Assembly: GCA_903826205.1 (NCBI GenBank)
Contig: CAIKDP010000073.1
Span: 1 to 64,000, forward strand
Source: Akkermansiaceae bacterium
GTDB lineage: Bacteria > Verrucomicrobiota > Verrucomicrobiia > Verrucomicrobiales > Akkermansiaceae
Direction of reading: 5' to 3'
DNA: 64,000 bases
Part shown: positions 1-64,000 of the stretch, piece after piece
How the letters are laid out: each line of letters starts with the position of its first letter
Position numbering within the stretch: position 1 is the stretch's first letter
Position numbers and translations under genes: made by a program
The notes under the pieces: model-generated
Database searches by the model: none
What the model was told of the DNA's origin: nothing
What the model saw: only the letters and a program-made list of their open reading frames with translations

Positions 1-504
1 AGTTGAGGATTTTGTCGCGGACGTTTTCAGGGATGTTGGTATCGCCGGCGGGTTGGACGTCGCGGCCGTAGATGCCAAATGCGGGCAGGCCTTTCTGGGT
101 GTGGCCGGCCAGCACTGCGGCCAGATAGACCGCACCCGGGCGCTCGGTGCCATTGAACCCCCACACCGCTTTGGGCAGCAACGGGTCCATATCCATGGTT
201 TCTGAGCCGTAGCACCAGCAAGGGGTGACCGTGAGCGAGACACCGACGTTTTCGCGGGCGAATTTTTCCGCGCAGGCACTGGCTTCAGGCAGGCCGCCGA
301 TGCAGGTGTCGGAGATCACACAAACGACGGGCGAGCCATCCGGATAACGCAATGAGGAGGAAATAAGGGCGGCTGCGGAGCGGGCCATTTCCATGGTCTG
401 GTCTTCGAGCGATTCGCGGACGCCGCCGTAGCGGCCGTCGATGGCCGGACGGATGCCGATTTTCGGGAAGGAGGTAAACACGCTGAGATTTTTGTTAGTC
501 ATGG
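1..504 (-). CDS. fucI: L-fucose isomerase, 3' part missing at the window edge
   Basis: Minus-strand translation from ATG at 504 reads [46 protein letters not shown]...[91 protein letters not shown], matching FucI motifs. Not in the supplied ORF list because it runs off the edge. Confidence 0.95.
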
Positions 505-582
505 CCCCTTGAGTGTGGGGCGGAGCGGCCCGCCTAGCCACTACAATTTTACGAAAGTTGCAGCATTTTCACTCAAACGACG

Positions 583-652
583 CCCCCCCGCGCTGTCACC
601 AGCGCGCCAACGAAGAGTGCGGCCGCTCGTGGGCGCGTTCGTGAGAACGCGG
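583..652. repeat. interspersed paired-hairpin element, copy a
   Basis: GCGCTG-TCAC-CAGCGC (590-605) and GCGTTC-GTGA-GAACGC (635-650). Confidence 0.8.
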
Positions 653-689
653 TCTTGGCAAGTGTCGCTTCCCGCGTGTAGGGTGTGGC

Positions 690-1595
690 ATGCAAAACGA
701 CCCACGTGCGGCCATTCTCGGGGTGACCGGCTTTGTCGGGCACGGCTTGCCCGCATTGCTGGCGGCGCACGGGATGTCGGTCACCGGGGTGAGTCGCGCG
801 GGTGCCGGCCGCTTGCCCGGGGTGGATCGCTGGCAACCCCCGACCCATCTGGATTTTTCGGGACACCGTGCGGTGATCAATCTTGCCGGCGAGTCGGTGG
901 CCCAACGCTGGAACCCGGACGCCCGCCGCCGCTTGTATGCCAGCCGGGTGGAGGTGACCCGCAGCGTGGTGGCGGCCATCGGCCGCTTGCCGGCGGGGGC
1001 GCGGCCCGAGGTGTTGGTGAATGCCTCGGCCGTCGGGTACTATGGTGATGGCGGCGACGCGGTTCTAACGGAAGAGTCGGCGCCGGGAAACGGGTTTCTG
1101 GCAGACTTGTGCCGCGCTTGGGAAGCCGCCGCGCTGGAGGCGGAGGCGCTCGGCGTACGGGTGGTGTGCCTGCGCCTGGGTATGGTGTTAGGGTGTGGGG
1201 GGCTGGCGTTTGAGCGCTTGCGGCGCGTGTTCACATGGGGGTTGGGTGGACGCCTGGGTACGGGCCGGCAATGGCAATCATGGATTCATCTGGACGACCT
1301 GAGGGCGACCATCGTGCATGCGGTGAACTCGCCAAGCCTGCGGGGGGCGGTCAATGCCACCGCGCCCGGACCTGTGCGCAATGTGGATTTCACCCGGCAG
1401 TTGGCGGCTGTGCTGCAGCGTCCGGCGGTGCTGCCGGTTCCGGCCTTCGCGCTCAAGCTCGCCCTTGGGGGCTTCGCCAGTGTGCTCTTGGAGGGCCAGC
1501 GGGCCATGCCTAACGCGCTCGTCGCCGATGGCTTCGGCTTTAAATTCCCTAACATGGAGGCTGCCTTGGCGGACTTGTGTCATCCAGCGGGCTAA
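690..1595 (+). CDS. NAD-dependent epimerase/dehydratase, TIGR01777/YfcH family
   Basis: ORF with GVTGFVGHGL nucleotide-binding motif, VLVNASAVGYYGDGGD, SWIHLDDL and NATAPGPVRN motifs typical of YfcH-like SDRs. Confidence 0.88.
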   Translation: MQNDPRAAILGVTGFVGHGLPALLAAHGMSVTGVSRAGAGRLPGVDRWQPPTHLDFSGHRAVINLAGESVAQRWNPDARRRLYASRVEVTRSVVAAIGRLPAGARPEVLVNASAVGYYGDGGDAVLTEESAPGNGFLADLCRAWEAAALEAEALGVRVVCLRLGMVLGCGGLAFERLRRVFTWGLGGRLGTGRQWQSWIHLDDLRATIVHAVNSPSLRGAVNATAPGPVRNVDFTRQLAAVLQRPAVLPVPAFALKLALGGFASVLLEGQRAMPNALVADGFGFKFPNMEAALADLCHPAG

Positions 1596-1604
1596 CGGCT
1601 CGCC

Positions 1605-2201: not shown

Positions 2202-2252
2202 TGGGCGGCCCCCAAGCTAGGAGCCCGCCGCGGAACATCAAGCCTCAACTTC

Positions 2253-3440: not shown

Positions 3441-3501
3441 GGCGCGGTGAGGAACAATGGAGTGAATTGGCGCTGAAGTAAAGGGGTAAAAAACGATTTT
3501 G

Positions 3502-4152
3502 TTAGACGGGGGGTGCGGCCCGGGTGAACTGGTGCAGCGCCTCAGGTTCAAGGAAATCCTGGTGGTAAATCAGGTGTGCCAGCAGGGGGACGCCGGCGAC
3601 TTGTTCGATCACGCCCTTGTTGGTGATCATGGCGGTATCCATTTCGTCCTCCAACTGGTTGAGGATGATGCCCACACAGGTCAGGCCGCGGGTGCGAATG
3701 GCATCGACCGTGAGGCGCACGTGATTGAGGCAACCGAGGCGGTTGGCGGCGACCACCAGCACCGGCAAGGCCAGCGCGGCCGCCAGATCGGAAACCTGCA
3801 AGCCGGGTGCCAGCGGCACTTCCCAGCCGCCCACGCCCTCCACCAGGACCGTCGTGTGACGCTCGGCAAGCTGCTGATAGCCTTGCACCAATTCAGCGAG
3901 GGTCAGCGTCCGGTTTTCCAATATGCCGGCGACCAGCGGCGCGAGGGCCGGCTTGAGAAACACCGGATTGACTTCATCCCGCGCCAGATTGCCGGAGGCG
4001 GCGGCGAGTCGCGTGGCATCCGCCCGGTCGCCGCAGGCCACGGGTTTGTAGCCGACGGCGTCGATGCCCTGGCCGCGCAGGGCTTCAAGGATCAAGCAGG
4101 TGACGTAGGTCTTGCCCACGCCGGTATCAGTGCCGGTAATGAAAACGCTCAC
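3502..4152 (-). CDS. bioD: dethiobiotin synthetase
   Basis: VFITGTDTGVGKTYVT P-loop, KPVACG, VEGVGGWEVPL motifs. GTG start inferred; the longer ORF start is unlikely. Confidence 0.92.
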   Translation of the reverse strand: MSVFITGTDTGVGKTYVTCLILEALRGQGIDAVGYKPVACGDRADATRLAAASGNLARDEVNPVFLKPALAPLVAGILENRTLTLAELVQGYQQLAERHTTVLVEGVGGWEVPLAPGLQVSDLAAALALPVLVVAANRLGCLNHVRLTVDAIRTRGLTCVGIILNQLEDEMDTAMITNKGVIEQVAGVPLLAHLIYHQDFLEPEALHQFTRAAPPV

Positions 4153-4318: not shown

Positions 4319-4330
4319 GCCACCGTCCGT

Positions 4331-5236
4331 TCAAAAAAACGCCCGCACGAGCAAGGCATAGACGCGGCGGCGCGGGACTTTGACGCGGGCTGCGAGGGTC
4401 TCCCAGGTGGCCCCACGCAGCAGTCCGAGCGTCTCCGCGGCGAGCAATGCCGGCAGTTGGGTGGAAGCCCGCAAGCGCCGCGACGGCAGGCTGCGGGCGT
4501 AGCTCCGGCCTTGCTCAAGCCATGCCGCCGCACGCTCGAGCCATCGCGCATGGGTCGCCAGCAACGCCGCGTGATCGCCAGGGTCGGCCACCGGCAGGTA
4601 ACATCGCCCAACCGCCAGATCCGCGGGCAGATCGCGTAAAATGTTGACCAGTTGCAAGCCCTGGCCATAGGCCCGGCCTTGATCTAACAAAACTTCCCGG
4701 GCGCTGCGGGAAAATCCGCCGCCGAGGGTGAGGAGCCCGAGCCGGGTCCAGAATTCCCCGACGCAGCCCGCGACGCGCCACGCGTAGTCTTCCAAGGCGG
4801 CCGCATCCGGCAGGGCGATGGGCCGTTGTGGTGTGGCATCCGCGAAGCGTTCCATATCGAGTTGCTGACCGCTGATGATGGTGGCCACCACTTCTCGCAC
4901 CAGGGCGGCCTCGCCCGCCGGCATGGCCCGCAACCAGCCCACGAGGCCTTGCGCGTTCTCTAACAACCGGCGTTCGCGCGCATCGCCGACCTGATCGAGC
5001 AAGTCGTCCGGCCAGCGGGGCAGGGGGGCCGGCGTGGCCACGGCCCGGGCGAAGCCGTGCAAGGCCTCCTGCCGCCAGGCGGGCGGGGCGGCGGTATCAG
5101 CCAGCGTGTCGCTGGTGCGGGCCAGCAGGTACGCGAGGCTGGCCGCGTCGCGCATCGGGGCGGGCAGCAGTCGCAAGCTGAGATAAAACGAGCGGGAAAC
5201 GCCTTTGAGGATTTGGGTTTCAGCAGCGTCACTCAC
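4331..5236 (-). CDS. squalene/phytoene synthase family protein
   Basis: SRSFYLSLRLLPAPMRDAASLAYLLARTSDTLADT, YGQGLQLVNILRDLPADLAVGRCYLP motifs. Start codon GTG. Confidence 0.88.
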   Translation of the reverse strand: MSDAAETQILKGVSRSFYLSLRLLPAPMRDAASLAYLLARTSDTLADTAAPPAWRQEALHGFARAVATPAPLPRWPDDLLDQVGDARERRLLENAQGLVGWLRAMPAGEAALVREVVATIISGQQLDMERFADATPQRPIALPDAAALEDYAWRVAGCVGEFWTRLGLLTLGGGFSRSAREVLLDQGRAYGQGLQLVNILRDLPADLAVGRCYLPVADPGDHAALLATHARWLERAAAWLEQGRSYARSLPSRRLRASTQLPALLAAETLGLLRGATWETLAARVKVPRRRVYALLVRAFF

Positions 5237-5790: not shown

Positions 5791-8541
5791 ATGAGCGCAG
5801 CCCCGAATTACAAAGACACCCTGACCCTACCGCAGACGAGCTTCCCGATGCGGGGAGATCTTGTGGCTAACGAGCCCAAACGCCTCGCGCACTGGGAAAA
5901 TGGCGGGCTTTACGAAATCATTATTGCCCACCGCCGAGCGCACAATGCCCCGGAGTTCATCCTGCACGACGGTCCGCCCTTCGCCAACGGCGACGTGCAC
6001 ATGGGCACCGCCCTCAACAAGGTGCTCAAGGATCTGGTGGTGAAATCCAAGACCATGGCCGGTTTCACCGTGCCCTTCATTCCCGGTTGGGACTGCCACG
6101 GCCTGCCCATCGAGTTTAAAGTCGTGAAGGAAGCCGCCGGGTTGGAACCGGGCGAAATCCGCCGCCGCTGCGCGGAGTTTGCGAAAAAATTCATCGACAT
6201 CCAGCGGGCGTCGTTCCGCCGGCTCGGAGTTTTCGGTGATTGGGACAACCCCTATCTGACCATGGCCCCGGGTTACGAGGCGAGCGTGCTGCGCGTCTTT
6301 GCCAAGCTGGTGGAGAACGGCACGGTCTATCAGGCGAAGAAACCCGTCCAATGGTCGTACGGCGCGCAAACCGCCCTGGCCGAGGCCGAGGTCGAGTATC
6401 ACGACAAGGAGAGCCCCGCGGTGTATGTTCGATTCCCGCTGATCGAGAGCCGGTATCAGCCTGCCGGATTTCCCACCGCCTTGCATGGTGCGGCGATGGT
6501 CATCTGGACGACCACGCCGTGGACGCTGCCGGCCAACCTCGGCATCGCGGTGCACCCGGACTTCACCTATGTGGTGGGCCGCTTCCACAACGCCGGCCGC
6601 GAGGAAACACTTGTGGTGTTACGCGAACTCGTCGCGGATTTCACCGCCAAGACCGGGTTTGAGCTCACCGAAAAGCTGGCCGAGATCAAGGGCCGCGAAC
6701 TGGAAGGCGGCGCGGCGCAACATCCGTTTCTGGACCGCACGTCCAAGTTGATTCTGGCCGGCTTTGTCACCACCGACACCGGCACGGGCGCCGTGCATAT
6801 CGCCCCCGGCCATGGGGCGGACGACTATGTGGCCGGCCAGCAGAACGGCCTCGACGTGCTCTCACCCGTGGATAATGAGGGGAAATTCACCGCTGAGGTC
6901 GGCATGGCCGAACTGGTCGGCGTGCACGTATTCAAAGCCAACGGCCGCATCATAGAGATCCTCGCGGAGCACGGCCAATTGTTAGGCCAGGAAACCATCC
7001 GCCATTCCTATCCGCATTGCTGGCGCTCCAAGACGCCGGTCATTTTCCGCGCCGTCGAGCAATTCTTCATCTCGCTGGAAACGCTGCGCGGCCAGGCGCT
7101 GGAGCAAATCGACAAGGTCGAATGGCTGCCGGCATGGGGCCGCAACCGGATCTACAGCACGGTGGAAACGCGCCCGGATTGGTGCATCTCGCGGCAACGC
7201 ACCTGGGGTGTGCCGCTGCCGGTGTTTTACGCGGTCGACGGGGCGGCCATCCTGTCCGCGGAGTTGGCCCACAATGTGGCGGATTTGGTGGAAACCGAAG
7301 GCACCAATTTTTGGTTCGACCACAGTGATGCGGAGATCGCGGCCCGTCTCGGGTTGCCTGAAGGTGTTAGGAAATGCCGCGACACGCTGGATGTGTGGAT
7401 TGACTCGGGCTGCTCGCATGTCGCCGTGTTGGATGCGCACCCGCAACTGCACACGCCCTGCGATCTCTATCTGGAAGCCACCGACCAGCATCGCGGCTGG
7501 TTCCAAAGCTCGCTCATGCTCAGCGTCGCCTACCGCGGCCGCGCCCCCTACAAAGCCGTCATGACCCACGGGTTTGTCGTCGACAAGGACAAGAAAAAAC
7601 TCTCCAAGTCCGAGGCGGAAAAGGCCGGCAAGCCGATTGATGCCGCGCACTTCTACAACCAATACGGCGCCGACATCGTCCGCTTGTGGGTCAGCAGCGT
7701 GGACTGGCAGAACGAGGTGCCCTTCAGCGAGGACCTGTTCAAACAAGTCGCCGAGCCTTATCGCCGACTGCGCAACACCCTGCGTATTTTGTTAGGCAAC
7801 CTCGATGGCTTCAAGGAGAGTGGGCATCCTGCCCACACTGAGTACACCCTGCTGGACCGCTGGATTCTCGAACGGCTCCACGAAGTGACCGCCGAGTGCC
7901 TTAAAGCCTATCAGGCATTTGAGTTCCGCAAGGTGTTCAACGCGCTCAATCAATTCTGCACCACCGATCTATCCGCCATCTACATCGATGCCACCAAGGA
8001 CCGGATGTATTGCGACGCGCCGGACTCGCCGCGGCGCCGCGCGTCGCAGGCGGCGATGCATGAGATTTTCACCGCCATTGCCAAGCTGCTGGCGCCGATT
8101 CTGGCGTTCACGGCGGACGAGGCCTGGGAGCATGCCGCGTTCACCAGTGGCTCGGTTCACGAACAAGACTTCCCGGTGCCGAATCCCGTGTTCAAACCGA
8201 GTAGGGTCACCCTGCAGGCCGAGCGCTTGTTTGAAATCAAATACGTCATCCAGACCGCCATCGAAGCCTGCATCCAAGCCAGGGAGTTCACCCGCAACAA
8301 CGAGGCGGATGTCACTCTAACCATTCCGGAGAAGGACGCCGCCTTGTTGCCGCTGCTCAACGACCGCGACTTTGCCACCGAGTTCTTCATCATTGCCGGC
8401 CTCAGCGCCACCCAGGGCGAGGCCCTCGCCGCCACCGCCCGCAAGACCGATTATTGCCTCTGCCCGCGCTGCCGCAAGCATGAGCCGCTGGTGGCCAGCG
8501 GCCTGTGTGAGAGGTGTGATAGTGTGGTCATTGGTCAATAG
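5791..8541 (+). CDS. ileS: isoleucyl-tRNA synthetase
   Basis: FILHDGPPFANGDVHMGTALNKVLKD (HIGH region), WDCHGLPIE, KKLSKS (KMSKS-like), C-terminal zinc finger CLCPRCRKHE...GLCERC. Confidence 0.98.
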   Translation: MSAAPNYKDTLTLPQTSFPMRGDLVANEPKRLAHWENGGLYEIIIAHRRAHNAPEFILHDGPPFANGDVHMGTALNKVLKDLVVKSKTMAGFTVPFIPGWDCHGLPIEFKVVKEAAGLEPGEIRRRCAEFAKKFIDIQRASFRRLGVFGDWDNPYLTMAPGYEASVLRVFAKLVENGTVYQAKKPVQWSYGAQTALAEAEVEYHDKESPAVYVRFPLIESRYQPAGFPTALHGAAMVIWTTTPWTLPANLGIAVHPDFTYVVGRFHNAGREETLVVLRELVADFTAKTGFELTEKLAEIKGRELEGGAAQHPFLDRTSKLILAGFVTTDTGTGAVHIAPGHGADDYVAGQQNGLDVLSPVDNEGKFTAEVGMAELVGVHVFKANGRIIEILAEHGQLLGQETIRHSYPHCWRSKTPVIFRAVEQFFISLETLRGQALEQIDKVEWLPAWGRNRIYSTVETRPDWCISRQRTWGVPLPVFYAVDGAAILSAELAHNVADLVETEGTNFWFDHSDAEIAARLGLPEGVRKCRDTLDVWIDSGCSHVAVLDAHPQLHTPCDLYLEATDQHRGWFQSSLMLSVAYRGRAPYKAVMTHGFVVDKDKKKLSKSEAEKAGKPIDAAHFYNQYGADIVRLWVSSVDWQNEVPFSEDLFKQVAEPYRRLRNTLRILLGNLDGFKESGHPAHTEYTLLDRWILERLHEVTAECLKAYQAFEFRKVFNALNQFCTTDLSAIYIDATKDRMYCDAPDSPRRRASQAAMHEIFTAIAKLLAPILAFTADEAWEHAAFTSGSVHEQDFPVPNPVFKPSRVTLQAERLFEIKYVIQTAIEACIQAREFTRNNEADVTLTIPEKDAALLPLLNDRDFATEFFIIAGLSATQGEALAATARKTDYCLCPRCRKHEPLVASGLCERCDSVVIGQ

Positions 8542-12846: not shown

Positions 12847-13809
12847 ATGCCGACCGACGCGATCCTCTCCACGGCCCGCCAATTTCTTGGTGTCCATCCG
12901 ACCGTATCCGTGACCCTGGAGCCGATCAAGCGCGGCGCCTCGGGGCGGACGATATTGCGGGTCAAGACCCAAGGGCACGAGCCGTTCATTGGCATCCATT
13001 GGACGGATGAGCGGGAGGACAACGAGCAATATATCCCGGTGGGGCATTTTCTCAAAAAGTGCCGGCTGCGGGTGCCGGCGATCCTGCATGAAAATCCGAA
13101 GCGGCATGTGGTGCTTGTCGAGGATCTGGGCGATGTGGATTTGCTGTCGCTCAAGGCCCAGCCCTTCGAGGCGCGTTTGCCGCTCTACCGGTCGGCGTTG
13201 GAGCAGGTGGACCGCTTGTTTTATGCCAAGCCGGACAAGGACATGGTGTTGATGCCGCCGTTTGATGCCGCGTTGTATCGCTGGGAGCAGGAGTATTTCT
13301 TTGAGTTTTTGGTGGAGGACCATCTGGGGCTCGATGCGGGTCCGTTGCGCAAAAACCCGGTGTTTGCCGATCTGGCCGAGCGTCTGGGCAAGGTGTCCAG
13401 ACATCTGGTGCACCGCGATTTTCAATCGCAGAACCTGCTGGTGAAGGACGGCCAGGTGTGGCTCATCGATTTTCAGGGATTGCGCCGCGGACGGCAGGAA
13501 TACGACATAGCGTCGTTGGTTTACGACCCCTACATGAACCACACGGCCGCCGAACGCGAGGCCTTGTTAGGCTTGTGGGAGGAAATTTCCGATGAGCGCC
13601 CGGAGCCCCGCTTGTTTCATGAATGTGCCAGCCAACGCCTGATGCAGGCGCTGGGGGCCTACGCCAATATTGTGCACCGGCGCGGTGACGAATGGTACCG
13701 ACCGCACATCGCCACCGCCGGCCGCCTGCTCAAGGGGGTGACGGACGGGACGGCCTTGGAAGCACCGCTGGCGCGCGTTTTCAAGGCGTTAGACGCAGTA
13801 TCGCCGTGA
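12847..13809 (+). CDS. aminoglycoside phosphotransferase-family kinase, resembling cell-wall amino-sugar kinase AmgK
   Basis: HLVHRDFQSQNLLVKDGQVWLIDFQGLRRGRQEYDIASLVYDPY is the APH catalytic region as in AmgK-like kinases. Confidence 0.8.
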   Translation: MPTDAILSTARQFLGVHPTVSVTLEPIKRGASGRTILRVKTQGHEPFIGIHWTDEREDNEQYIPVGHFLKKCRLRVPAILHENPKRHVVLVEDLGDVDLLSLKAQPFEARLPLYRSALEQVDRLFYAKPDKDMVLMPPFDAALYRWEQEYFFEFLVEDHLGLDAGPLRKNPVFADLAERLGKVSRHLVHRDFQSQNLLVKDGQVWLIDFQGLRRGRQEYDIASLVYDPYMNHTAAEREALLGLWEEISDERPEPRLFHECASQRLMQALGAYANIVHRRGDEWYRPHIATAGRLLKGVTDGTALEAPLARVFKALDAVSP

Positions 13810-30840: not shown

Positions 30841-31083
30841 GGCAGCGGCGTTTATGCGAACAGGGGGGGTGGGTGACAAGGAAAAACCTGAGGAAATATC
30901 ATATTTTTTTCTCAGTGAGTTCTTGACTTTTAGCCCCGCTGCGTGTGCAAGCGGCCTGCCTGCTGGGAAAACGGCGGGTGTGGGCCGCCGCATGACTTGA
31001 TTGTTAGAAAATGTTAGTCAGGTGGCGGAAGGGATTGGGGCCGGAGCCTGAGGAAGGAATTGACGGGGTGGCCGGGTTGCTGC

Positions 31084-36473: not shown

Positions 36474-38896
<2,423 letters not shown>

Positions 38897-48090: not shown

Positions 48091-48816
48091 ATGCCACGCG
48101 TCACCATCACCGCACCCAGCAAGACTCCGCAACCTTATCGGTTCCAGCTCGATCGCCAGGTGGTGCTGATCGGCCGCGGCAGCGAGAATGACATTGCGGT
48201 GGATTGCAGCTCCATGTCCGTGCGGCATGCCGAGATGTTGCGCGTCGAGGGCGGCTACAAGTTGCGCGACCATGGATCGACCAATGGCATCAAGCTGGAT
48301 GGCAAACGCTGCGAGGAGGTGGTCCTGCGCGATGGCCTCAGCGTGAAGCTGGGCGATGTGCTGTTTGATTTCCAATTGAGCGAGGAGGAACGCGAGGCGC
48401 TGGCCCGCGAAAAAGTGTTGGACGAGGCGCCCGTCTTCAAGGAGGAGCCAAAGCCGGTGACCGACGTAGAGTCATCCGAGTCGTCGGAGGAGCCGAAGAA
48501 GAAGACCGCCGGTTCGGCCTCGGGCGGGGGGCGTGGGTTCATGATCTTTGTGGGGCTGTTGCTGTTTGCCTTGCTGGCCTTTATCTGCGGCCTGTCCCTC
48601 CGTCATTATATGCAAACCGGGGGCTCCTTGTTAGGCGCCATTCAGTCCAAGACCAAAACCCTCAAAGCCAACCGGGAGGCCCAAGGCGCACCCGCTCCGC
48701 TGGCTCCCGCACCGGATGCCTCAGTGCCGGTGAATCCCGCCCCCGCAGTACCCGTCGAGCCCGCCCCCGCGGCACCCGTCGAGCCCGCGGCGAATGCGAA
48801 TTCCCCAACTTCGTGA
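48091..48816 (+). CDS. FHA domain membrane protein with Ala/Pro-rich C-terminus
   Basis: VVLIGRGSENDIAVDCSSMSVRHAEMLRVEGGYKLRDHGSTNGIKLDGKR (FHA); single TM; PAPAVPVEPAPAAPVEP tail. Confidence 0.92.
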   Translation: MPRVTITAPSKTPQPYRFQLDRQVVLIGRGSENDIAVDCSSMSVRHAEMLRVEGGYKLRDHGSTNGIKLDGKRCEEVVLRDGLSVKLGDVLFDFQLSEEEREALAREKVLDEAPVFKEEPKPVTDVESSESSEEPKKKTAGSASGGGRGFMIFVGLLLFALLAFICGLSLRHYMQTGGSLLGAIQSKTKTLKANREAQGAPAPLAPAPDASVPVNPAPAVPVEPAPAAPVEPAANANSPTS

Positions 48817-48851: not shown

Positions 48852-51344
48852 ATGTCCGTGCCTGCCCCCACCCCGATGATGGCCCAATACCAGGCCATGC
48901 GGAAGTCCCTGCCCGCGGACGTGCTGCTGCTGTACCGGCTCGGGGATTTTTACGAGATGTTTTTCGAGGACGCCAAGACCGCCTCGCCCATTCTCAATGT
49001 GGCGCTCACCCGCCGCAATGGCGTGCCCATGTGCGGCGTGCCCTATCATGCCGCCCAAGGTTACCTCGCCCGCCTGCTCAAGGCCGGCAAGCGCGTGGCC
49101 ATCGCCGAACAAACGTCCGACCCCAAGCCGGGCAAACTCGTCGAGCGCGAGATTGCCCGCATCCTCACGGCCGGCTCGATCGACGATCTGACCCTCCTCG
49201 ATGACCAACGCCCGAACTATCTGGCCGCCGTCTGCCGGCATGGGAAAACCGTCGGGCTGGCCTGCGTGGACCACACCACCGGCGAGTTCACCATCGCCGA
49301 GTTTGCCGATCTCGGCCAGCTCGAGGATGAATTGTCCCGCATCTGCCCGTCCGAGTTGTTAGTGCCGGACCATCAGACCGCGGAATTCGGCCTACTGCGC
49401 CACAGTCTCGCCTACGAAGGTTATGCCTTTCTGCCCGAGCACGCGAGCCAACTGCTGCGCGACCACTTCAACGTCCATTCGCTCGATGGCTTCGGCTGCT
49501 CGCAACTCCACGCCGCCAGCGGCGCAGCCGGCGCCGTCCTGCATTACCTGACCCATCAGTTGCGCCGCCCCTGCGGCCATATCCACCCGCCGCACGTGCG
49601 CGCCAGCAGCGACCACGTTCTCATTGATGCCGCGTCCCAACGCAATCTCGACCTGGTGGAATCCCGCTCCGGCAAGGCCCATACTTTGTTAGGTGTGCTT
49701 GACCGCACCGCCACCCCGATGGGCGCGCGCCTGCTGCGGGATTGGATCCTGCATCCGTTGCGGGATATCGCGACCCTGACCTCCCGGCAGGACCTCATCG
49801 CCGACTTGCTGGCGGAGCCGTTTCTTCTATCAAAATGCCGCGAGGCGCTAAAAGGCATTCGCGACATCGAGCGCACCACCTCGCGCCTCTCGCAGGGCAG
49901 CGGTAATGCCCGCGACCTCCAGTCGCTCGCCATCTCGCTCTCCCACATCCCGGCGCTCAAGGAGGATCTTGCCACGCTCGGAACCTCGCAGGCCTCGCTT
50001 TCCGCCACGCTCACCTCCCGCCTCCATGACTTTTCCGATCTGACAAAAATGCTGGCCGCCGCGCTGGCCGACGAACCGCCAGCCCACCTGCGCGACGGTG
50101 GCATCATCCGCGACGGATGGTCGCCGGAACTCGATGAGTTGCGCAGCGCCGCCCGCGGCGGCAAGGATTGGATCGCCCGCCTGCAAGCCGACGAACGCAA
50201 GCGCACCGGCATCGACTCGCTCAAGATCAAGTTCAACAACATCTTCGGCTACTTCATCGAAATCACCTCGTCGCACCTGGCGAAAGTCCCCGACGATTAC
50301 ACCCGCAAGCAAACCATGTCCAATGCCGAGCGCTACATCACGCCCGCGCTCAAGGCAATGGAAAACAAGGTGTTAGGCGCCGAGGAGCGCTCCAAGCAAC
50401 TTGAAGGCGAATTGTTTGTGGAGCTGCGCGGCCGCACCATCGCCCACCTTCCCGCGTTGCAGGAAACCGCCGCCGCCATCGCCGAAACCGATGTGCTCTG
50501 CGCGCTGGCGGAAGTCGCCCAGTATCACCGCCATTGCCGGCCGGTGCTCGAGGAGTCCCGCCGCTTCCTCATCACCAACGGCCGCCACCCGGTGCTCGAA
50601 CAAACCCTAACCGAAATCAAGTTTGTCCCCAACGACACCGAACTCGACCCGGATTGCGCCCGCCTGCAGATCCTCACCGGACCTAACATGGCCGGCAAAT
50701 CCACCTACATCCGGCAGATCGCGCTCATCGCGGTGATGGCGCAAATCGGCGCCTTTGTCCCGGCGGATGCCGTCACCCTTGGCATTGTGGACCGGATTTT
50801 CTGCCGGGTGGGCGCCTCCGACGACCTCTCGCGCGGCCAATCCACCTTCATGGTTGAGATGAGTGAGACCGCCCTCATCCTCAACCATGCCAGCGACCGC
50901 TCGCTGGTCATTTTGGATGAAATCGGCCGTGGCACCGCCACCTTTGACGGACTCTCGATCGCCTGGGCGGTGGCCGAGCATATCCACGATGCGATTGGTT
51001 GCCGCACCTTGTTTGCCACCCACTATCATGAACTCACCGATCTGGTGAACACCCGCGCCGCAGTGGCCAACTACAACGTCGCGGTCCGCGAGTGGAACGA
51101 TGAAATCATCTTCCTCCATAAAATCCTGCCCGGTGCCGCCGACAAATCCTATGGCATCCAGGTCGCCCGCCTCGCCGGTCTGCCCAAGCCGGTGGTCGAG
51201 CGCGCCAAGTCAATCCTCTCGCACCTCGAACTCCATTCACTCAAGCCCGAGGCCAGAACCCAGGGCCCCAAGGCCAAGAACACCGTCCAGGACACCCTGC
51301 CCAAGGCCAACGCCGCACAGATGGATCTGTTCGGCGGGTTCTAA
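48852..51344 (+). CDS. mutS: DNA mismatch repair protein MutS
   Basis: TPMMAQYQAMRKSLPADVLLLYRLGDFYEMF, LTGPNMAGKSTYIRQIALIAVMAQIG, LVILDEIGRGTATFDGLSIAWAVAEHI. Confidence 0.98.
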   Translation: MSVPAPTPMMAQYQAMRKSLPADVLLLYRLGDFYEMFFEDAKTASPILNVALTRRNGVPMCGVPYHAAQGYLARLLKAGKRVAIAEQTSDPKPGKLVEREIARILTAGSIDDLTLLDDQRPNYLAAVCRHGKTVGLACVDHTTGEFTIAEFADLGQLEDELSRICPSELLVPDHQTAEFGLLRHSLAYEGYAFLPEHASQLLRDHFNVHSLDGFGCSQLHAASGAAGAVLHYLTHQLRRPCGHIHPPHVRASSDHVLIDAASQRNLDLVESRSGKAHTLLGVLDRTATPMGARLLRDWILHPLRDIATLTSRQDLIADLLAEPFLLSKCREALKGIRDIERTTSRLSQGSGNARDLQSLAISLSHIPALKEDLATLGTSQASLSATLTSRLHDFSDLTKMLAAALADEPPAHLRDGGIIRDGWSPELDELRSAARGGKDWIARLQADERKRTGIDSLKIKFNNIFGYFIEITSSHLAKVPDDYTRKQTMSNAERYITPALKAMENKVLGAEERSKQLEGELFVELRGRTIAHLPALQETAAAIAETDVLCALAEVAQYHRHCRPVLEESRRFLITNGRHPVLEQTLTEIKFVPNDTELDPDCARLQILTGPNMAGKSTYIRQIALIAVMAQIGAFVPADAVTLGIVDRIFCRVGASDDLSRGQSTFMVEMSETALILNHASDRSLVILDEIGRGTATFDGLSIAWAVAEHIHDAIGCRTLFATHYHELTDLVNTRAAVANYNVAVREWNDEIIFLHKILPGAADKSYGIQVARLAGLPKPVVERAKSILSHLELHSLKPEARTQGPKAKNTVQDTLPKANAAQMDLFGGF

Positions 51345-51469
51345 GCGCCAGCTGCCGCGCAGTGGCCGGCTTGCGCAAAGGAGATGCCCCTCACGCTGCC
51401 CGGCCAGCCCGGGCCATGACTCACAGGCCCTGAATGATGGCTTCTAACAGCCAGGAAAAAAATCCACCA

Positions 51470-51644: not shown

Positions 51645-52982
51645 ATGAAATCGACCACGCAAGCTGCGCTGCTGTCTGAAAATGCAGAATTGCGCATGCG
51701 CTTGGAGGCCGCGGAGGCCGCTTTATACGCTTTGCGCAACGGCGAGGGTGGCGCGCCCGTCACCGAGGTTGCCAGCGCTCCGCAGGTGTTGTCCCTGCAG
51801 GGGTTGGCCACCGCATCGAACCCTTCGTGCGGCGAACTCCTCACCCGGGATGCCGAGGTGCGGCAGTTGCTGGAGGCCGTTCATATTGTTAGGGATCGCT
51901 TGGCGGCATTGGTGGGCAGTATCAACGACGAGGCCAGGCGCGGGGAATTGGCGCTGCGCGAAAACGCGGAACTGTTGAACCAGGCTCAGGAAATCGCCCA
52001 CCTCGGCAGTTGGGAACTCGACTTGCGCACCAACCAGTTGACATGGTCTGACGAGGTTTACCGGATTTTTGGTTTCAAGCCCCAGGAGTTTGCCGCGACC
52101 TACGAGGCGTTTTTGGACCGGGTGCATCCCGACGATCGCGCGAAGGTCGATGCCGCCTACTTCGGCTCGGTCCGCGAAGGGCGCGACACCTACGAAGTTG
52201 AGCACCGGGTCGTGCGCAAGCCTACCGGCGAGGTTCGCGTCGTTTATGAGAGGTGCCGGCATTTCCGCGATGCCACCGGCAACGTCGTCCGCTCCTGCGG
52301 TATGGTGCAAGACATCACCGAGCGCAAGCAGGCCGAGGAGCAGATCAAGGGGGCGCTGGCAGAGAAAGAAGTCATGTTGCGGGAAATTCATCACCGGGTG
52401 AAAAACAACCTGCAGGTCATTTCGAGCCTGGTCAGTTTGCAGTCCGATACCGTGACCGATGCGCAGGTGCGCGAGGTGCTAGGCGACGTGCGTGACCGCG
52501 TGCGGGCGATGGCGTTGGTCCACGAGAAGCTCTATCAGACAGGCGATCTGGCGCGGTTGAACTTTGCCGACTACGCGGCGAGCCTGTTGCAGTATCTTTG
52601 GCGTTCCCATGGCGCGTTCGCCGAAAAGGTGCGCTTGCAACTGGCGGTCTCGTCCGTGGCGTTGCCGATCGAGGCCGCGGTGCCTTGCGGCTTGATCCTC
52701 AATGAATTGGTCGGCAACGCCCTCAAACATGCCTTTCCCGACGGCGGTGGTGGCGAAGTGAGGGTGGTCTTGGAACTCGATCCCGCTGATGCAGTTGTCA
52801 GCCTGCGGGTGGGCGACAATGGCTGCGGTCTGCCGCCGGGGCAGGACTGGCGGCAGTCCAGTTCGCTCGGTCTGCGTCTGGTGCAAATGCTGGTCAGTCA
52901 GTTGCGCGGCACCGTGACGACGGGAACCGGCCCCGGCACCGAATTCCGGGTCACCTTTTCCTTGAAACGGCCTCATTCATGA
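51645..52982 (+). CDS. PAS-domain sensor histidine kinase, HisKA_2/HWE-like type
   Basis: PAS region GSWELDLRTNQLTWSDEVYRIFGFKPQEF; MLREIHHRVKNNLQVISSLVSLQ H-box; LNELVGNALKHAFP N-box. Confidence 0.92.
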   Translation: MKSTTQAALLSENAELRMRLEAAEAALYALRNGEGGAPVTEVASAPQVLSLQGLATASNPSCGELLTRDAEVRQLLEAVHIVRDRLAALVGSINDEARRGELALRENAELLNQAQEIAHLGSWELDLRTNQLTWSDEVYRIFGFKPQEFAATYEAFLDRVHPDDRAKVDAAYFGSVREGRDTYEVEHRVVRKPTGEVRVVYERCRHFRDATGNVVRSCGMVQDITERKQAEEQIKGALAEKEVMLREIHHRVKNNLQVISSLVSLQSDTVTDAQVREVLGDVRDRVRAMALVHEKLYQTGDLARLNFADYAASLLQYLWRSHGAFAEKVRLQLAVSSVALPIEAAVPCGLILNELVGNALKHAFPDGGGGEVRVVLELDPADAVVSLRVGDNGCGLPPGQDWRQSSSLGLRLVQMLVSQLRGTVTTGTGPGTEFRVTFSLKRPHS

Positions 52983-54546: not shown

Positions 54547-55209
54547 CTAGCGGCGGATCATGCCCGCTTCGACCCAGCGGATGGCGTGGCGGGTGAGGGC
54601 GCTGCCATCGCTGATGCCGAGCTTCTCGCGGATATGGGCGCGGTGGACGTCCACGGTTCGCGGGCTGATGCCGAGTTGCTCGGCGATTTCCTGATTGCCC
54701 TTGGCCAAGCCGATCAATTCAAAGACCTCGATTTCGCGGTCGGTCAGGCGTTCCAACGGGAAACTCAGCTTGGTGGGACTCTTGCCAGGCACCAGCGCCT
54801 GGAGAAAATGGTTGGTGACGGCCGGGCTGGCGTACACCCCGCCGCCGAGCACGCAGCGGATGGCCTGCAGCAGGCGCTCGGTCGGCGCGTCTTTGGTGAC
54901 GTAGCCACGCCCCCCGGCCCGCAGCACGCGTTCCGCATACAGCAACTCGTCGTGCATCGACAGGACGATGACCGGAAGGTCCGGATAGGTGGTGCCAAGG
55001 TCCTTGATGAGTTCCAAACCACTGCGTCCCGGCAGTGTGAGATCCGTGATGACCAGATCCGGCGCTTCGGATTCCACCCGCGCGAGCGCCTCCTGCACCG
55101 AGCCCGCCGTGGCACAAATGCTCAGCCCGGGTTGCGATCCTAACAGCTGCCGGAGTCCTTCGGTGATCAAAGGATGGTCATCCACCAGAAGAATCTTGGT
55201 CACCTTCAT
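54547..55209 (-). CDS. LuxR/NarL-family response regulator
   Basis: KILLVDDHPLITEGLRQLL, VITDLTLPGRSGLELI, LTDREIEVFELIGLAKGNQEIAEQLGISPRTVDVHRAHIREKLGI. Confidence 0.95.
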   Translation of the reverse strand: MKVTKILLVDDHPLITEGLRQLLGSQPGLSICATAGSVQEALARVESEAPDLVITDLTLPGRSGLELIKDLGTTYPDLPVIVLSMHDELLYAERVLRAGGRGYVTKDAPTERLLQAIRCVLGGGVYASPAVTNHFLQALVPGKSPTKLSFPLERLTDREIEVFELIGLAKGNQEIAEQLGISPRTVDVHRAHIREKLGISDGSALTRHAIRWVEAGMIRR

Positions 55210-55460: not shown

Positions 55461-57167
55461 ATGGAAACGCCTCCCTTCGCCGAACTCGGGCTGCCCGCCG
55501 CCCTGCTTGCCGCCATTGAAACCCTCGGCTATGAACGCCCGTCGCCGATCCAGGCGATGAGTATCCCCACCGCCCTTAAAGGTCGCGATATCGTCGGCCT
55601 CTCGGAAACCGGTTCGGGTAAAACCGCCGCTTTCGTGCTGCCGGCCCTCACCTTGCTGGATGTCACCGCCCAATATCCCCAAGTCCTGATCCTGTGCCCG
55701 ACTCGCGAACTCGCCGTGCAGGTGTGCGAAGAAGTCCACCGCCTCGGCGCCAAACTCACCGGGCTGCATGCCACCCCGGTCTATGGCGGCGCCCCGATGG
55801 ATCGCCAGTTGCGCGCCCTGCGCAGCGGCGCCCAATTGATTGTCGGCACTCCCGGTCGCCTGCTCGACCACCTCCGCCGCGGCAGCTTCGATGCCTCCCG
55901 CATCAAGCTGGCCATTCTGGATGAGGCCGACCGCATGCTGGACATGGGGTTTCGTGATGAAATGGACGAGTTGTTGGCCGCCCTGCCTGCGGAGCGCCAG
56001 ACCTTGTTTTTCTCGGCCACGATGAACCCGGGCGTCTCGCGGCTGATCCAGCGCTTCGGCAAAGCCCCGGAAATCATCGAGGTCCAACAAAAGGCCCGCA
56101 CCGTCTCCACCGTCGACCAATCGTACTTCGAAGTGCGCCAACGCTCGAAGGTTGAAGTGCTCTCCCGCCTGCTCGATATGAGCCCGCCGCGGCTGGCCCT
56201 CATCTTTTGCAACACCAAACGCTCGGTGGACGAATGCACCGAAGACCTCGTCAATCGCGGCTATGCCGCCGACCGACTCCATGGCGACATGACCCAACAA
56301 ATGCGCGAGCGCGTCCTCAAGCGCTTCCGCGAAGGGTCCGTCGAATTGCTCGTCGCCACCGACGTCGCCGCCCGCGGACTCGATATCGATGAAATCGACA
56401 TCGTTTTCAACTACGACCTGCCCACCGACCCCGAGGACTACGTGCACCGGATCGGGCGCACCGGTCGTGCCGGGCGTTCGGGACGGGCGGTGAGCTTCGT
56501 GTTCGGCCGCGAGATCTATCGGATTCAATCGATCGAACGCTACACCCGTTCGGTCATCCGCCGCGAACGCATCCCGTCCCAGGAACAAGTCGAGGGCCGC
56601 CGCGCCGACCTCATCTTTGATTCCTTGAAGGAGCGCCTCGAAACCGGCAAATTCGATGCCTATCAGGATAATATCGACCGGTTGTTAGAACAAGGCCACA
56701 CCCCGACCGACATCGCCGGCGCGCTGGTCACCCTGCTGCGTGAATCCAGCGGCCGGGAAGGCTCCGCCATCGAGGAAGATCGCGAGCCGGAACGCCGGGA
56801 CCCGCGCGACTCCAAAGGACCGAAATCCCCCAAGGACGCCAAGTTCCAACGCGAAGGCGGCCCCAAGGCGCGTCCCGAGCGCGGCGGGCCGCGGGACGCC
56901 CACAGCGCCGAGCACGGCATGGCCCACATGTTCTTGTCCCTCGGCAAAACCCACGGCGTCATGGCCAAGGAAATCGTCGGCATGCTCTATCGGGAGGCCG
57001 GCTTGCCCGACGGTTGTCTGGGCCGCATCACCTTGTTTCCAAAGCACTCGCTCGTCGATGTGCCCGAGGAATTCGTCCACCAAGTCATCGACCGCACCCG
57101 CAACGCCCGCTTGCGTGGCCGCCCGTTCCGCATCGATCGCGACCGCGGCCCCCAGGACCGCCCTTGA
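55461..57167 (+). CDS. DEAD-box ATP-dependent RNA helicase with DbpA-like RNA-binding C-terminus
   Basis: [53 protein letters not shown]-terminal [49 protein letters not shown]. Confidence 0.94.
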
Positions 57168-58003: not shown

Positions 58004-58807
58004 ATGCGCACCCTAACCATCTACAAACGCGAGCTGGGCAGCTACTTCTCGCAGCCCACCGCCTACGCGATCATCGTGATCTTTCTCCTGCTCTCAATGG
58101 GACTCGCCTTCACCTTCGGCAGTTTCATCAAGGCCGGGGATGCCTCCCTCGAGTGGCCGTTTTTCTTCTGGCACCCGTGGATATTCATGTTGCTGGCACC
58201 GGCCGTCGCCATGAAACTCTGGTCTGACGAGCAACGCAACGGCACCATCGAACTCCTCGGCACCTTCCCCGTCTCCACCCGCAGCGCCATCATCGGCAAA
58301 TTCCTCGCCGCCGCCACCGTCTGGCTGGTGGCCCTGGCCTGCACTTTCCCCATCGTCGTCACTGTCAACTACCTCGGCGCCCCCGACAACGGCGTGATCC
58401 TCTCCGGCTACATTGGCAGTTTTCTGGTGTGTTGTTCGTTTGTCGCCGTTACCATGCTCGTCTCCGCCTGCACGCGGGATCAGGTGGTGTGCCTCATCGT
58501 GTCAGTCTTCGTGTGCTTCCTGGCGGTGGTCATCGGCTACGACCCGGTGGCCCGCGCGCTCGACAGCTTCGTCACCCCGCCCGCCGCGGAGGCGGCCGCC
58601 GTCACCGGCCTGTGGGCACGGCTGGCCCTCTGGTGGCATCAGGGGGTCGCCCAAGTGGTGGAAGTCTCCACCTCGTTTGGTGTCTGGAACCACTTCGCCT
58701 CCCTCAACCGGGGACTCTTGCGCTTGCAGGACTTGGTGTGGTTTGGTTCCACCATCCTGGTCTCCTTGTTAGGGACCAGCGCCATCCTCTCGGCCAAACG
58801 TTCCTGA
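58004..58807 (+). CDS. ABC transporter permease (GldF-like)
   Basis: MRTLTIYKRELGSYFSQPTAYAIIVIFLLLSMG, LAPAVAMKLWSDEQRNGTIELLGTFPVS. Confidence 0.88.
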   Translation: MRTLTIYKRELGSYFSQPTAYAIIVIFLLLSMGLAFTFGSFIKAGDASLEWPFFFWHPWIFMLLAPAVAMKLWSDEQRNGTIELLGTFPVSTRSAIIGKFLAAATVWLVALACTFPIVVTVNYLGAPDNGVILSGYIGSFLVCCSFVAVTMLVSACTRDQVVCLIVSVFVCFLAVVIGYDPVARALDSFVTPPAAEAAAVTGLWARLALWWHQGVAQVVEVSTSFGVWNHFASLNRGLLRLQDLVWFGSTILVSLLGTSAILSAKRS

Positions 58808-58860: not shown

Positions 58861-60804
58861 ATGGCCCACAAACCAACCCACCCTGTCACCCGTGCCGCCT
58901 TTGGTGTCGGCGCGCTGGTCGCCATCGCGGTCCTAGCCAACTGGCTCGTGTCCATCACCCCGGCCGGCAACCGCGGCCAGGACTTCACTGAAAACAAGAT
59001 CCACACTCTCTCGGAAGGCACCCGCGGCATCCTCGCCGAACTGGACACTCCGGTGGTCATCCGCTACTACGCATCTCGTAATACCGCCTACATGCCGGAG
59101 GTGCTCAAGCTCCACATGCGGCGCGTGGATGATCTGCTCAAGGAGTACGGCGCGCTGTCCAAGGGTAAACTCCGTATCGATGAACTCGATCCCCAACCGG
59201 ATACCGACGCCGAGGACTCCGCCAATCTCGATGGCATCAATGGCCAGCGCATGGACGACCAGAATCTCTTCTTCGGCCTGGCTGTCACCTGTCTGGACCG
59301 CACCAGTGTCATTCCATTCCTCGATCCTAACGACGAGACCATGTTGGAATACCACCTGTCCAAAGCCATTGCCGAGGTGGCCACGCCCGCCAAACCGGTG
59401 ATCGGCGTCATGTCCGCCCTGGAGTTGGCAGGCAGCCCCGCGCAGATGCCCGGCCAGCGGCCCACGCCGGGCTGGGTCTTCTATCAGCAATTGAAACAAT
59501 CCTTCGAGGTCAGGGACCTTGGCATGACTCCGACCGTGATTGATCCCAAGGAGATCAAGGTGCTGCTGCTGTTCCATCCCGCGGGCATCACTCCGGCGGC
59601 CGAGTTTGCCGTGGACCAATACCTGCTCGGCGGCGGTACCGTCGTGGCCTGCCTCGATGCCTTCTCGGTGGTCGCCCAAATGACCAGCGGCGGCAATCCG
59701 ATGATGGGCGGTGGCGGCACTCCCACCACCTCCACATTGCCCACTTTGTTAGGGGCCTGGGGCATGAGTTTTGAGTCCGGCCAGGCCCTGGCCGACCCGA
59801 CTTACCTGACTCCCATGCGGACAAAAACGGGTGAGACCGATGCCATGGCCATCCTGACCCTGCCGCAGGAAGCGATGCCACAAAAGGACAACGTCATCAC
59901 CAAGGATCTCAAATCCATCATGCTGTTGATACCCGGAGCCTTCACCCAGACCGGGGGTGCGGGCGTGGCTGCCAATACCTTGGTGCGATCCTCGCTGCGC
60001 GCCGGTTTGGTGGATTCCATGAAAGCCTCGCGCCTCGATCCGTCCCTGGCCACTTCCCTTAAATCCAAGGGTGTTGCCTATGACCTCGTCACCCACCTGA
60101 GCGGTACCTTCAAGAGCGCCTTCCCTAACGGAAAACCGGGCGAACCGCCGCCCGCGCCCAAGGCGGAGGAACCCAAGAAGGAAATCGGCCAGTTGCCCGC
60201 AGAGGTGAAAAAAGAAGCTCCCAAGCCGCAATGGCTCAAGGAAGGGAGCGCGGCTGGCAATGTGTTCCTGATTGCCGACATCGACGCGTTTTACGACCAA
60301 TTTGCCTATAAAGTCCAAAATTTCGGTGGCATGCAGATGGCGTCGCCGGCCAACGGCAACTCCTCGCTGCTCTTCAATCTGTTGGATCAGGCCACCGGTT
60401 CGAAACACCTCATTGGATCGCGTTCACGTGCCGCGGTGCGCCGGCCGTTCACCGTGATTCAGGCCATGGAGGCAACCTTCAATAAGGAGGTCGGCCAGGA
60501 AATCGCCAACTTCCAAGCCAAACAAGAAGAGGCCCAGCGCAAACTCAGCGACCTCCAGGCGAAGAAATCCCAAGGCTCGGATCTCCATCTCTCGCCGGAA
60601 CAGGAAGCCGAGATCCGCAAGTGGCGCCACGAAAGCGTGGAATACTCCCGCCAGATCCGCGAAAAGGAAAAAGACCTGCGCCGCCAAAAAGACAAACTCG
60701 CCGGCAATATCACCTTGCTCAACGTCGCCGTCATGCCCGCCATCGTCATCCTCTTTGGTTTCGCACTCTTCCTCAAACGCCGTTCCTCCACCCGCGCCCG
60801 CTGA
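58861..60804 (+). CDS. GldG-like ABC-associated auxiliary protein
   Basis: RGQDFTENKIHTLSEGTRGILAELDTPVVIRYYASR, DQYLLGGGTVVACLDAFSVV, C-terminal coiled coil and TM. Confidence 0.87.
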   Translation: MAHKPTHPVTRAAFGVGALVAIAVLANWLVSITPAGNRGQDFTENKIHTLSEGTRGILAELDTPVVIRYYASRNTAYMPEVLKLHMRRVDDLLKEYGALSKGKLRIDELDPQPDTDAEDSANLDGINGQRMDDQNLFFGLAVTCLDRTSVIPFLDPNDETMLEYHLSKAIAEVATPAKPVIGVMSALELAGSPAQMPGQRPTPGWVFYQQLKQSFEVRDLGMTPTVIDPKEIKVLLLFHPAGITPAAEFAVDQYLLGGGTVVACLDAFSVVAQMTSGGNPMMGGGGTPTTSTLPTLLGAWGMSFESGQALADPTYLTPMRTKTGETDAMAILTLPQEAMPQKDNVITKDLKSIMLLIPGAFTQTGGAGVAANTLVRSSLRAGLVDSMKASRLDPSLATSLKSKGVAYDLVTHLSGTFKSAFPNGKPGEPPPAPKAEEPKKEIGQLPAEVKKEAPKPQWLKEGSAAGNVFLIADIDAFYDQFAYKVQNFGGMQMASPANGNSSLLFNLLDQATGSKHLIGSRSRAAVRRPFTVIQAMEATFNKEVGQEIANFQAKQEEAQRKLSDLQAKKSQGSDLHLSPEQEAEIRKWRHESVEYSRQIREKEKDLRRQKDKLAGNITLLNVAVMPAIVILFGFALFLKRRSSTRAR

Positions 60805-60812
60805 GCTGGAGG

Positions 60813-60849: not shown

Positions 60850-60858
60850 CCTCCCTCC

Positions 60859-62190: not shown

Positions 62191-62262
62191 GGCCCAACTG
62201 GAATAGAGGTCAGGGCCGGGACCTTTTTCCACTCCGTCCGAGGACGCAGAGTGATATTGCCA

Positions 62263-62297
62263 GTTCAACATATAATGCCAGACATTATATTGTTGAC
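62263..62297. promoter_or_regulatory. AT-rich imperfect palindrome upstream of mutL; candidate promoter/operator
   Basis: gttcaacatataatg-ccaga-cattatattgttgac; includes TTCAAC-N16-TATATT. Confidence 0.4.
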
Positions 62298-62344
62298 GGA
62301 TTGGGGTTGGAAAACTGGCGGGAGGAGGCTAGGTTGGCGGGGCG

Positions 62345-64000
62345 ATGTCGAAAATCCGGGTGCTCTCTGACATTCTGGCCAGCCAAGTGGCGGCCGGGGA
62401 GGTGGTGGAACGTCCGGCCTCGGTGGTCAAGGAGTTGGTGGAAAACAGCATTGATGCCGGCGCCGGCGAAATCCGCGTCGACGTCGATCGCGGCGGGTCG
62501 GCCCTGATCCGCGTGAGCGACGATGGCTGCGGCATGTCGCGCGAAGACGCGCTGCTTTCGTTGGAGCGTCACGCGACCAGCAAACTGCGCAACGCCGGGG
62601 ATTTGGCAGCGATCCGCACCCTGGGATTTCGCGGGGAAGCCGTGCCGAGCATTGCGAGCGTGTCGAGGTTTCGAATGGTCACGCGGGAGGCGGTGGCGGT
62701 GGCGGGGACGGAAATTTTGGTGGAGGGCGGGAAATTCTGCGATGTGAGGGAAGCGGGTTGCGCGCCGGGCACGGTGATCGAAGCCAAGGCGTTGTTTTTC
62801 AACATGCCGGCCCGCCGCAAATTCATGCGCGCGGAATCGACGGAGGCGGCGCACGTCGAGCACCAGTTGCGTTTGCATGCGCTGGGGGCGCCGCACATTC
62901 GCTTCCGCCTGCGGCGGGACGACCGGGAGGTGTTTGATCTGGCGCCGGTGGCACGGGCCGTGGACCGGGTGCGGCAGTTGTTAGGTCCGGAGTTGGCCAG
63001 GGAATTGATCACCTTGCCGGTCACCCATGGCAACGGCATCTCGGTGGAGGGTTTTGTTTTGCCCGCAGCCCATGCCCGCAAGGGACGGCGTCATCAAATC
63101 GTGATTTTGAACGGCCGGCCAGTGGAAGATGCCGTGATTTCGCGGGCCTTGGCCGAGGGGTTTCGCGGGGCGTTGGCCGACGGGATGTTTCCTGCGGCCT
63201 GGCTGTGGATCGATCTGGAGCCGGCGCTGGTGGATGTGAATGTGCACCCGGCCAAACGCGAGGTGCGCTTTCACCGGCCGATCGAAGTGCGGGAAACCAT
63301 CTTGGAGGCGGTGCTAGCCGGGCTGAAGCCACCCGCGCCGCCGCCGGTCAAAAGGGTGGTGCCAACGCGGGATGTTCTAACGGGTGAGTCACCAGACGGT
63401 GGTCACAGACCGCCGCCACAAGGCGAAGGGCCGCCGCCATTCCAGAGTCGGGCGGTGCAGCCAGGCCTGTCACGGCGGCCGGAAATTTCAAGCGACGAGA
63501 CAGGTGCGGGCGGGGTGGCAGTGGAAGCGATTCCGCTGGTGGGTCGGCAGCCGGTGTTTCGGATCATGGGCATGTTGCACCAACGCCTGGTGGTGATGGA
63601 GAGTGAGGATGGCTTGGTGGTGTTTGATCCGAAGGCGGGGCGGGAGCGGGTGTATTATGAACAACTGCTGCGGCAGCATTCCGGCGGGCTGGAAACGCAA
63701 AGCCTGCTGGTGCCTGTGTTGCTAGAGCTGGATCCGCGGGATTTGGACCTGGTGTTGCGGGAGCGGCTGGCGCTGGCGGAGGCCGGGATCGAGGTGGAGG
63801 CATTTGGCGGCAATACCCTGCAAGTGCGGTGTCTGCCGGCGTGCCTGCCGGTCGATGATCCGCGGCCATTTCTGGGTGCCTTGATGGACGAATTGCTGCA
63901 TGAATCCGCGCCGGGTGCCCGCTTTGCCTTTGAGCGGCTGGCGCGTTTGTTAGCCAAACGTGCGGCGGCTCTGGTATCGCCCAAGCAGGCGGAATGCGAG
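62345..64000 (+). CDS. mutL: DNA mismatch repair protein MutL, truncated at the window edge
   Basis: IRVLSDILASQVAAGEVVERPASVVKELVENSIDAGAGEIRVDV, VSDDGCGM, RHATSKL, LGFRGEA, VNVHPAKREVRF. Not in the supplied ORF list because it runs off the edge. Confidence 0.96.
   Translation, partial: MSKIRVLSDILASQVAAGEVVERPASVVKELVENSIDAGAGEIRVDVDRGGSALIRVSDDGCGMSREDALLSLERHATSKLRNAGDLAAIRTLGFRGEAVPSIASVSRFRMVTREAVAVAGTEILVEGGKFCDVREAGCAPGTVIEAKALFFNMPARRKFMRAESTEAAHVEHQLRLHALGAPHIRFRLRRDDREVFDLAPVARAVDRVRQLLGPELARELITLPVTHGNGISVEGFVLPAAHARKGRRHQIVILNGRPVEDAVISRALAEGFRGALADGMFPAAWLWIDLEPALVDVNVHPAKREVRFHRPIEVRETILEAVLAGLKPPAPPPVKRVVPTRDVLTGESPDGGHRPPPQGEGPPPFQSRAVQPGLSRRPEISSDETGAGGVAVEAIPLVGRQPVFRIMGMLHQRLVVMESEDGLVVFDPKAGRERVYYEQLLRQHSGGLETQSLLVPVLLELDPRDLDLVLRERLALAEAGIEVEAFGGNTLQVRCLPACLPVDDPRPFLGALMDELLHESAPGARFAFERLARLLAKRAAALVSPKQAECE

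Follow-up and report, generated by a model that had tools for sequence, protein, structure and literature searches.

What drives one five-letter word, GTTAG or its complement CTAAC, to recur all along a stretch of bacterial chromosome? The stretch in question, called the window below, is the whole of the 64,000 nucleotides analyzed (contig C73) from an Akkermansiaceae bacterium, the genome of which spans 5.57 Mb in 469 contigs and is 97.7% complete. In a search with MutS, the host of the window fell within Verrucomicrobiota, the nearest named relative in the searched collection being Haloferula luteola (72% identity); Verrucomicrobia at a greater distance, Akkermansia among them, came next. 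Judged by these matches, the host belongs to the Haloferula/Akkermansia group of Verrucomicrobiota. An earlier note on this DNA had pointed out the word and suggested that it shapes the choice of synonymous codons. The explanation that we prefer, to which we give a probability of roughly 0.4, is that it is a recognition word accumulated by biased uptake or recombination, working like the DNA uptake sequences (DUS) of Neisseriaceae and the uptake signal sequences (USS) of Pasteurellaceae. The sequence analyses drew on about 0.5 Mb of this genome; the compared genomes, mostly metagenome-assembled, carry labels of the form G###, this genome being G000.

The plus strand of the window holds 56 GTTAG and 53 CTAAC, in coding and intergenic DNA, at a mean spacing of 588 bp. 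A simple mechanical gene caller gave 51 genes covering 94% of the window, and the word was compared with a codon-preserving shuffle, in which synonymous codons are permuted within each gene so that the protein and the codon usage are kept. GTTAG/CTAAC occurred 99 times where 19.1 were expected (z = 17.3) and ranked first among the 512 pentamers, a recurrence stronger than the earlier note had claimed. The caveat in that note, that base composition might account for the raw count, was wrong, as the word was also the top pentamer under a maximal-order Markov model (109 versus 62.7). All four codon phases that stop codons leave open contribute to the enrichment (observed versus shuffled: NNG-TTA-G, 38 versus 7.1; CTA-AC, 28 versus 4.1; NCT-AAC, 25 versus 5.0; GTT-AG, 8 versus 2.9). 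TTA codons for Leu were flanked by G on both sides in 38 of 47 cases, compared with 389 of 2194 for all Leu codons (p = 1.7e-21), which bears out the restriction noticed by eye, although our gene calls leave nine exceptional TTA codons and not three. CCT was preferred ahead of AAC (odds ratio 18, p = 3e-11) and CTA ahead of AC (odds ratio 17, p = 6e-20), in agreement with what had been described for Pro-Asn and Leu-Thr. AGA/AGG was likewise preferred following GTT (odds ratio 33, p = 7e-7), as had been suspected, although 'many' was an overstatement for what proved to be just 7 of 97 AGA/AGG codons. The exact positions that had been listed matched in 29 of the 30 cases tested, 58767 being off by one base.

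The enrichment extends over the genome. In 258 kb of its coding sequence (CDS), GTTAG/CTAAC was found 393 times versus 109 in the codon-preserving shuffle, with sense and antisense enriched alike (174 versus 49 and 219 versus 65), and a sample of intergenic DNA (35 kb) again had it as the top pentamer (60 versus 24 under a trinucleotide Markov model). The two orientations are balanced within most contigs (56:53 in the window), and no replichore polarity of the word was seen. GTTAG/CTAAC is a genome-wide, DNA-level word, present in genes and between them; its rank in intergenic DNA, the equality of sense and antisense and its presence in all phases not closed by stop codons uphold the earlier suggestion that the pressure acts on DNA rather than on translation. 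As a separate observation, CCAGG/CCTGG (0.63-0.69x), runs of C or G, and GTAC were rarer in this genome than in the codon-preserving shuffles.

The pentamer described in the earlier note is part of a longer word, its core. The core is flanked by Y/T upstream and R downstream; in the same 258 kb of CDS, TTGTTAG was found 122 times versus 7.2 and TTGTTAGA 37 times versus 1.4 in the codon-preserving shuffle, and the enrichment amounts to 15x for YTGTTAGR and 27x for TTGTTAGA. In a one-mismatch table, three core bases (G, A and G) were essential, the second core position tolerated A and partly C, and the outer bases were soft (Y, T and R in the one-mismatch landscape). The true word is longer than the pentamer, approximately YTGTTAGR, and non-palindromic; its G-N-T-A-G core is essential and its flanks are soft. 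Over the whole genome it was counted 2004 times versus 839 for the control, the reversed pattern, which corrects for base composition and not for dinucleotides. In a comparison of precursor counts, no single-step precursor word was depleted specifically in the enriched genomes; GTTGG and GTTTG were enriched, not depleted, and the depletion of CGAAC does not follow the enrichment across genomes.

Copies of the word also keep apart. In 489 kb of this genome, 167 pairs of GTTAG lay 20-200 bp apart, versus 225 under uniform placement, and this ratio was the lowest among 283 pentamers of similar count (median ratio, 1.12). Note that this spacing statistic was picked after a hint of spacing had been seen, and that a fairer measure is given by the rank among all words. 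For CDS we used a stricter null, which fixes the protein sequence, the rate of realization for each dipeptide and how many copies each gene has; with this null, 96 pairs were found at 20-200 bp versus 148 (z = -5.1), and the pool of eight other word-bearing genomes gave 177 versus 210 (z = -2.7). The avoidance reaches about 200 bp; copies avoid each other in this genome and are likely to do so elsewhere. The avoidance speaks against a purely mutational context, since a mutational process would have no cause to pass over a neighborhood in which a copy already lies, and it fits a machine for which a single copy per short stretch suffices. Two long repetitive frames at G000:C90 3-17761 were left out of the spacing analysis. 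They are adjacent, very long open reading frames (2585 and 3395 aa in the mechanical call) with autotransporter/adhesin-like repeats, and CTAAC/GTTAG occurs in them 16 and 30 times, respectively, for the most part in one orientation. Independently of these, copies of GTTAT/ATAAC in the G000 sample cluster strongly within 100 bp (93 pairs versus 20), which suggests that the sampled contigs include a tandem or CRISPR-like array.

The window is ordinary chromosome. Besides ileS, pheS, pheT, mutS and mutL, it carries an ATP synthase operon and a MoxR/VWA/BatD cluster, as well as helicases and signalling genes, and its GC content is even (0.60-0.64 throughout), so that an island effect is not in play. 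The near-consensus copies of YTGTTAGR in the window, located by word match, are as follows.

3499..3506, plus strand, near-consensus copy
6979..6986, plus strand, near-consensus copy in ileS
7789..7796, plus strand, near-consensus copy in ileS
13564..13571, plus strand, near-consensus copy
15421..15428, plus strand, near-consensus copy
21923..21930, plus strand, near-consensus copy
26388..26395, plus strand, near-consensus copy
26706..26713, plus strand, near-consensus copy
28758..28765, plus strand, near-consensus copy
31001..31008, plus strand, near-consensus copy between called genes
31303..31310, plus strand, near-consensus copy
38297..38304, plus strand, near-consensus copy in an ATP synthase subunit gene
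40723..40730, plus strand, near-consensus copy
43283..43290, plus strand, near-consensus copy
48628..48635, plus strand, near-consensus copy
49686..49693, plus strand, near-consensus copy in mutS
51886..51893, plus strand, near-consensus copy
56682..56689, plus strand, near-consensus copy
58766..58773, plus strand, near-consensus copy
59746..59753, plus strand, near-consensus copy
62978..62985, plus strand, near-consensus copy in mutL
4683..4690, minus strand, near-consensus copy
4959..4966, minus strand, near-consensus copy
19968..19975, minus strand, near-consensus copy
21481..21488, minus strand, near-consensus copy
22767..22774, minus strand, near-consensus copy
25611..25618, minus strand, near-consensus copy
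42410..42417, minus strand, near-consensus copy
45053..45060, minus strand, near-consensus copy
51443..51450, minus strand, near-consensus copy between called genes
55139..55146, minus strand, near-consensus copy

Among relatives, the word has species dialects on one core, with patchy gain and loss. The ratio of YTGTTAGR to its control ranges from 0.3 to 4.6 within the genus, and this genome had the highest ratio among the 214 genomes of a phylum survey, a draw that left out word-rich congeners such as G009, G014, G020 and G162. Most of the phylum avoids the word; across the order, GTTAGA mostly stands at about 0.05-0.3 of its control, and in the congener G008 the core is actively rare (7 versus 27, about 0.2x). 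High GTTAGA stands out in separate groups: this genus, where it reaches 2.7, a further two genera of the same family, genus g20 (family f2) and, in part, genus g3 (family f3). The dialects are CTGTTAGA in G162 (34 versus 1.1), CTGTTAGG in G020, CGGTTAGR in G017 and CTGCTAGG in G012, and G043, from another family, prefers TTGTTAGA plus TGTCAG and TGCTAG. No literature on the word was found.

Several further observations were made in these genomes. In G043, a second enriched word, CCTGACAT/ATGTCAGG (17 versus 2.2), stands with TGCTAG beside TTGTTAGA, as if two related words coexisted. CTGCTAGG/CCTAGCAG was enriched in G012 (9 versus 0.4), and the dialect in the G012 and G015 samples contains CTAG, a tetramer that bacteria usually avoid. 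GGAAA/TTTCC was about 2x over the codon-preserving shuffle in the genus (G004, G008, G012, G015 and G017), whether GTTAG was enriched or not, and is a separate, broader bias. A distant genome of the phylum has six head-to-tail CTGTTAGR 8-mers, a tandem 8-bp repeat, at G315:C28:1188-1235.

How might such a word have built up? In the explanation that we prefer, a cellular machine would read approximately YTGTTAGR, with its core GTTAG/CTAAC, in double-stranded DNA, and the word would have accumulated over the whole chromosome of the lineage. The machine would be a DUS/USS-type system that recognizes self-DNA and takes it up (or recombines it). Fragments with a copy would be preferentially taken up and recombined, which would drive copies into the genome; on a short fragment that already has one copy, another would add nothing, so that copies would not crowd. 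In the known systems, uptake sequences show significantly even spacing without palindromy or orientation bias (PMC1939737), their dialects surround an invariant core (PMC3630211), and a second copy within 100 bp brings no gain (PMC7811141).

Several points weigh against this explanation. All genomes with DUS dialects have an excess of inverted close pairs (PMC3630211), whereas here inverted pairs within 60 bp were not in excess (15/11/12/15 by orientation, with a total under expectation). The avoidance is clear in this genome only, and the pooled support elsewhere is modest: none of the eight other genomes was decisive singly, and under a freer null the pooled effect was small (177 versus 188). 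The presence of ComEC and DprA in this genome agrees with the explanation, but 30 of 30 panel genomes had them, so that competence genes do not separate word-rich from word-poor genomes, and a limited literature search found no report of natural transformation of these bacteria. YTGTTAGR is also shorter and softer (8 bp, 15-27x) than DUS and USS. Turnover of the sites is a further such point, 36% of them being conserved in the nearest congener, G018 (80% identity), versus 32% for the median word; this value, near that of the median word, does not separate the models and is uninformative either way. Since inverted pairs are not in excess and DNA uptake is something that we infer, we do not class the word as DUS or USS and only liken it to an uptake sequence.

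More broadly, we tentatively suggest that Verrucomicrobiales may possess an unrecognized self-DNA recognition language, with G-N-T-A-G dialects gained and lost within the genus and gained independently in other families, and working through a receptor that is not related to the receptors of Neisseriaceae and Pasteurellaceae. An uptake word, if that is what it is, would mean sequence-specific DNA exchange in a little-studied phylum. A single genus holds species with 15-27x enrichment, species without enrichment and species with other dialects, so that gain and loss can be traced against gene content, and the short-range avoidance provides a quantitative test of drive or selection against mere mutation.

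The alternative that survives best, though unlikely, resembles the highly iterated palindromes (HIP) of cyanobacteria: the word would be read by a DNA methyltransferase or another modification, and would be driven and kept either by mismatch repair that the modification directs or by a function that depends on the modification. In the density of its core, about one per 600 bp, and in having lineage-specific alternates, the word is similar to HIP sites. One proposal for HIP sites is a drive by methylation-dependent mismatch repair (PMC4390886), and such a drive would likewise disfavor close copies. However, the word is non-palindromic and its specificity graded, unlike typical methyltransferases. 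Methyltransferase families PF01555, PF02384 and PF00145 do not track the enrichment in the genomes compared: the word-rich G157 is without PF01555, G126 without PF02384 and this genome without PF00145, absences that are weakened by genome incompleteness. No 5-methylcytosine (m5C) methyltransferase was detected in this genome either, and the target of a modification enzyme, proposed in the earlier note, found no correlate. The large N6 methyltransferases that are shared are HsdM-like, and HsdM-like enzymes have bipartite targets. One of these, an 890-aa enzyme common to several word-rich genomes, was considered and rejected; it falls into two groups (~40-50% identical), is type I-like and was absent from the enzymes listed for the strongest genome, G162. 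Separately, a 4 kb contig (G000:C270) carries a CcrM-like N6 methyltransferase that looks unlike the enzymes of the congeners and may be a binning contaminant.

Rather unlikely, too, is a word of chromosome architecture, bound by an abundant nucleoid, topoisomerase or condensin-type protein covering ~100-200 bp and spread by selection. Avoidance up to ~200 bp is on the scale of a DNA-wrapping complex, and the copies lie in genes and intergenic DNA without polarity; close congeners without the word, such as G008, are nevertheless hard to square with an essential role, and no candidate binding protein was identified. We consider it improbable that a context-dependent mutation or repair bias, also proposed in the earlier note, makes GTTAG without any function. 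Soft, graded flanks, turnover of sites and a strength that varies between species are typical of mutational contexts, but such a bias does not predict the avoidance of neighboring copies within 200 bp, no single depleted precursor is tied to the enrichment, and an eight-base specificity at 15-27x is extreme for a mutational context. An oriented recombination or segregation signal, like Chi or the FtsK-orienting polar sequences (KOPS), would be a short, asymmetric, over-represented word of this kind; it is largely refuted, as signals of this type are skewed to one strand per replichore and the word is without polarity. A codon-pair, tRNA or other translation-level bias, suggested by the position of most copies in genes and by their use of the rare codons TTA, CTA and CCT, is refuted by the enrichment in intergenic DNA and antisense and by the several codon phases.

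Few groups are known to have words iterated over the whole genome: two proteobacterial families have uptake sequences, and cyanobacteria have HIPs. How such words originate is debated. The core of integron attC/attI sites, GTTRRRY, is matched by GTTAGR in its first six bases; this candidate was rejected, as the seventh base shows no preference for Y (0.45 versus 0.43 in the null) and the copies, rather than being att sites, reflect the choice of codons within genes. Chi and KOPS are short, asymmetric and over-represented like YTGTTAGR, and differ from it in their strand polarity. HIP1 and the alternative HIPs, with which the earlier note had aptly compared the word as an iterated genome-wide one, are likewise octamer-scale words that shape synonymous choice and differ, in form and abundance, between related genomes; unlike HIP1, YTGTTAGR is graded and not palindromic, no matching methyltransferase was found for it, and avoidance between its copies has been measured. 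DUS and USS differ from YTGTTAGR in their excess of inverted pairs and belong to a different phylum. They resemble it in being non-palindromic words in both orientations, in genes and intergenic DNA, with soft flanks, an invariant core, dialects among congeners, a spacing more even than random, and a near-consensus copy every ~1.7-2.8 kb (YTGTTAGR in G020 and this genome). By this comparison, uptake sequences are, among the known systems, those that share the most features with the word.

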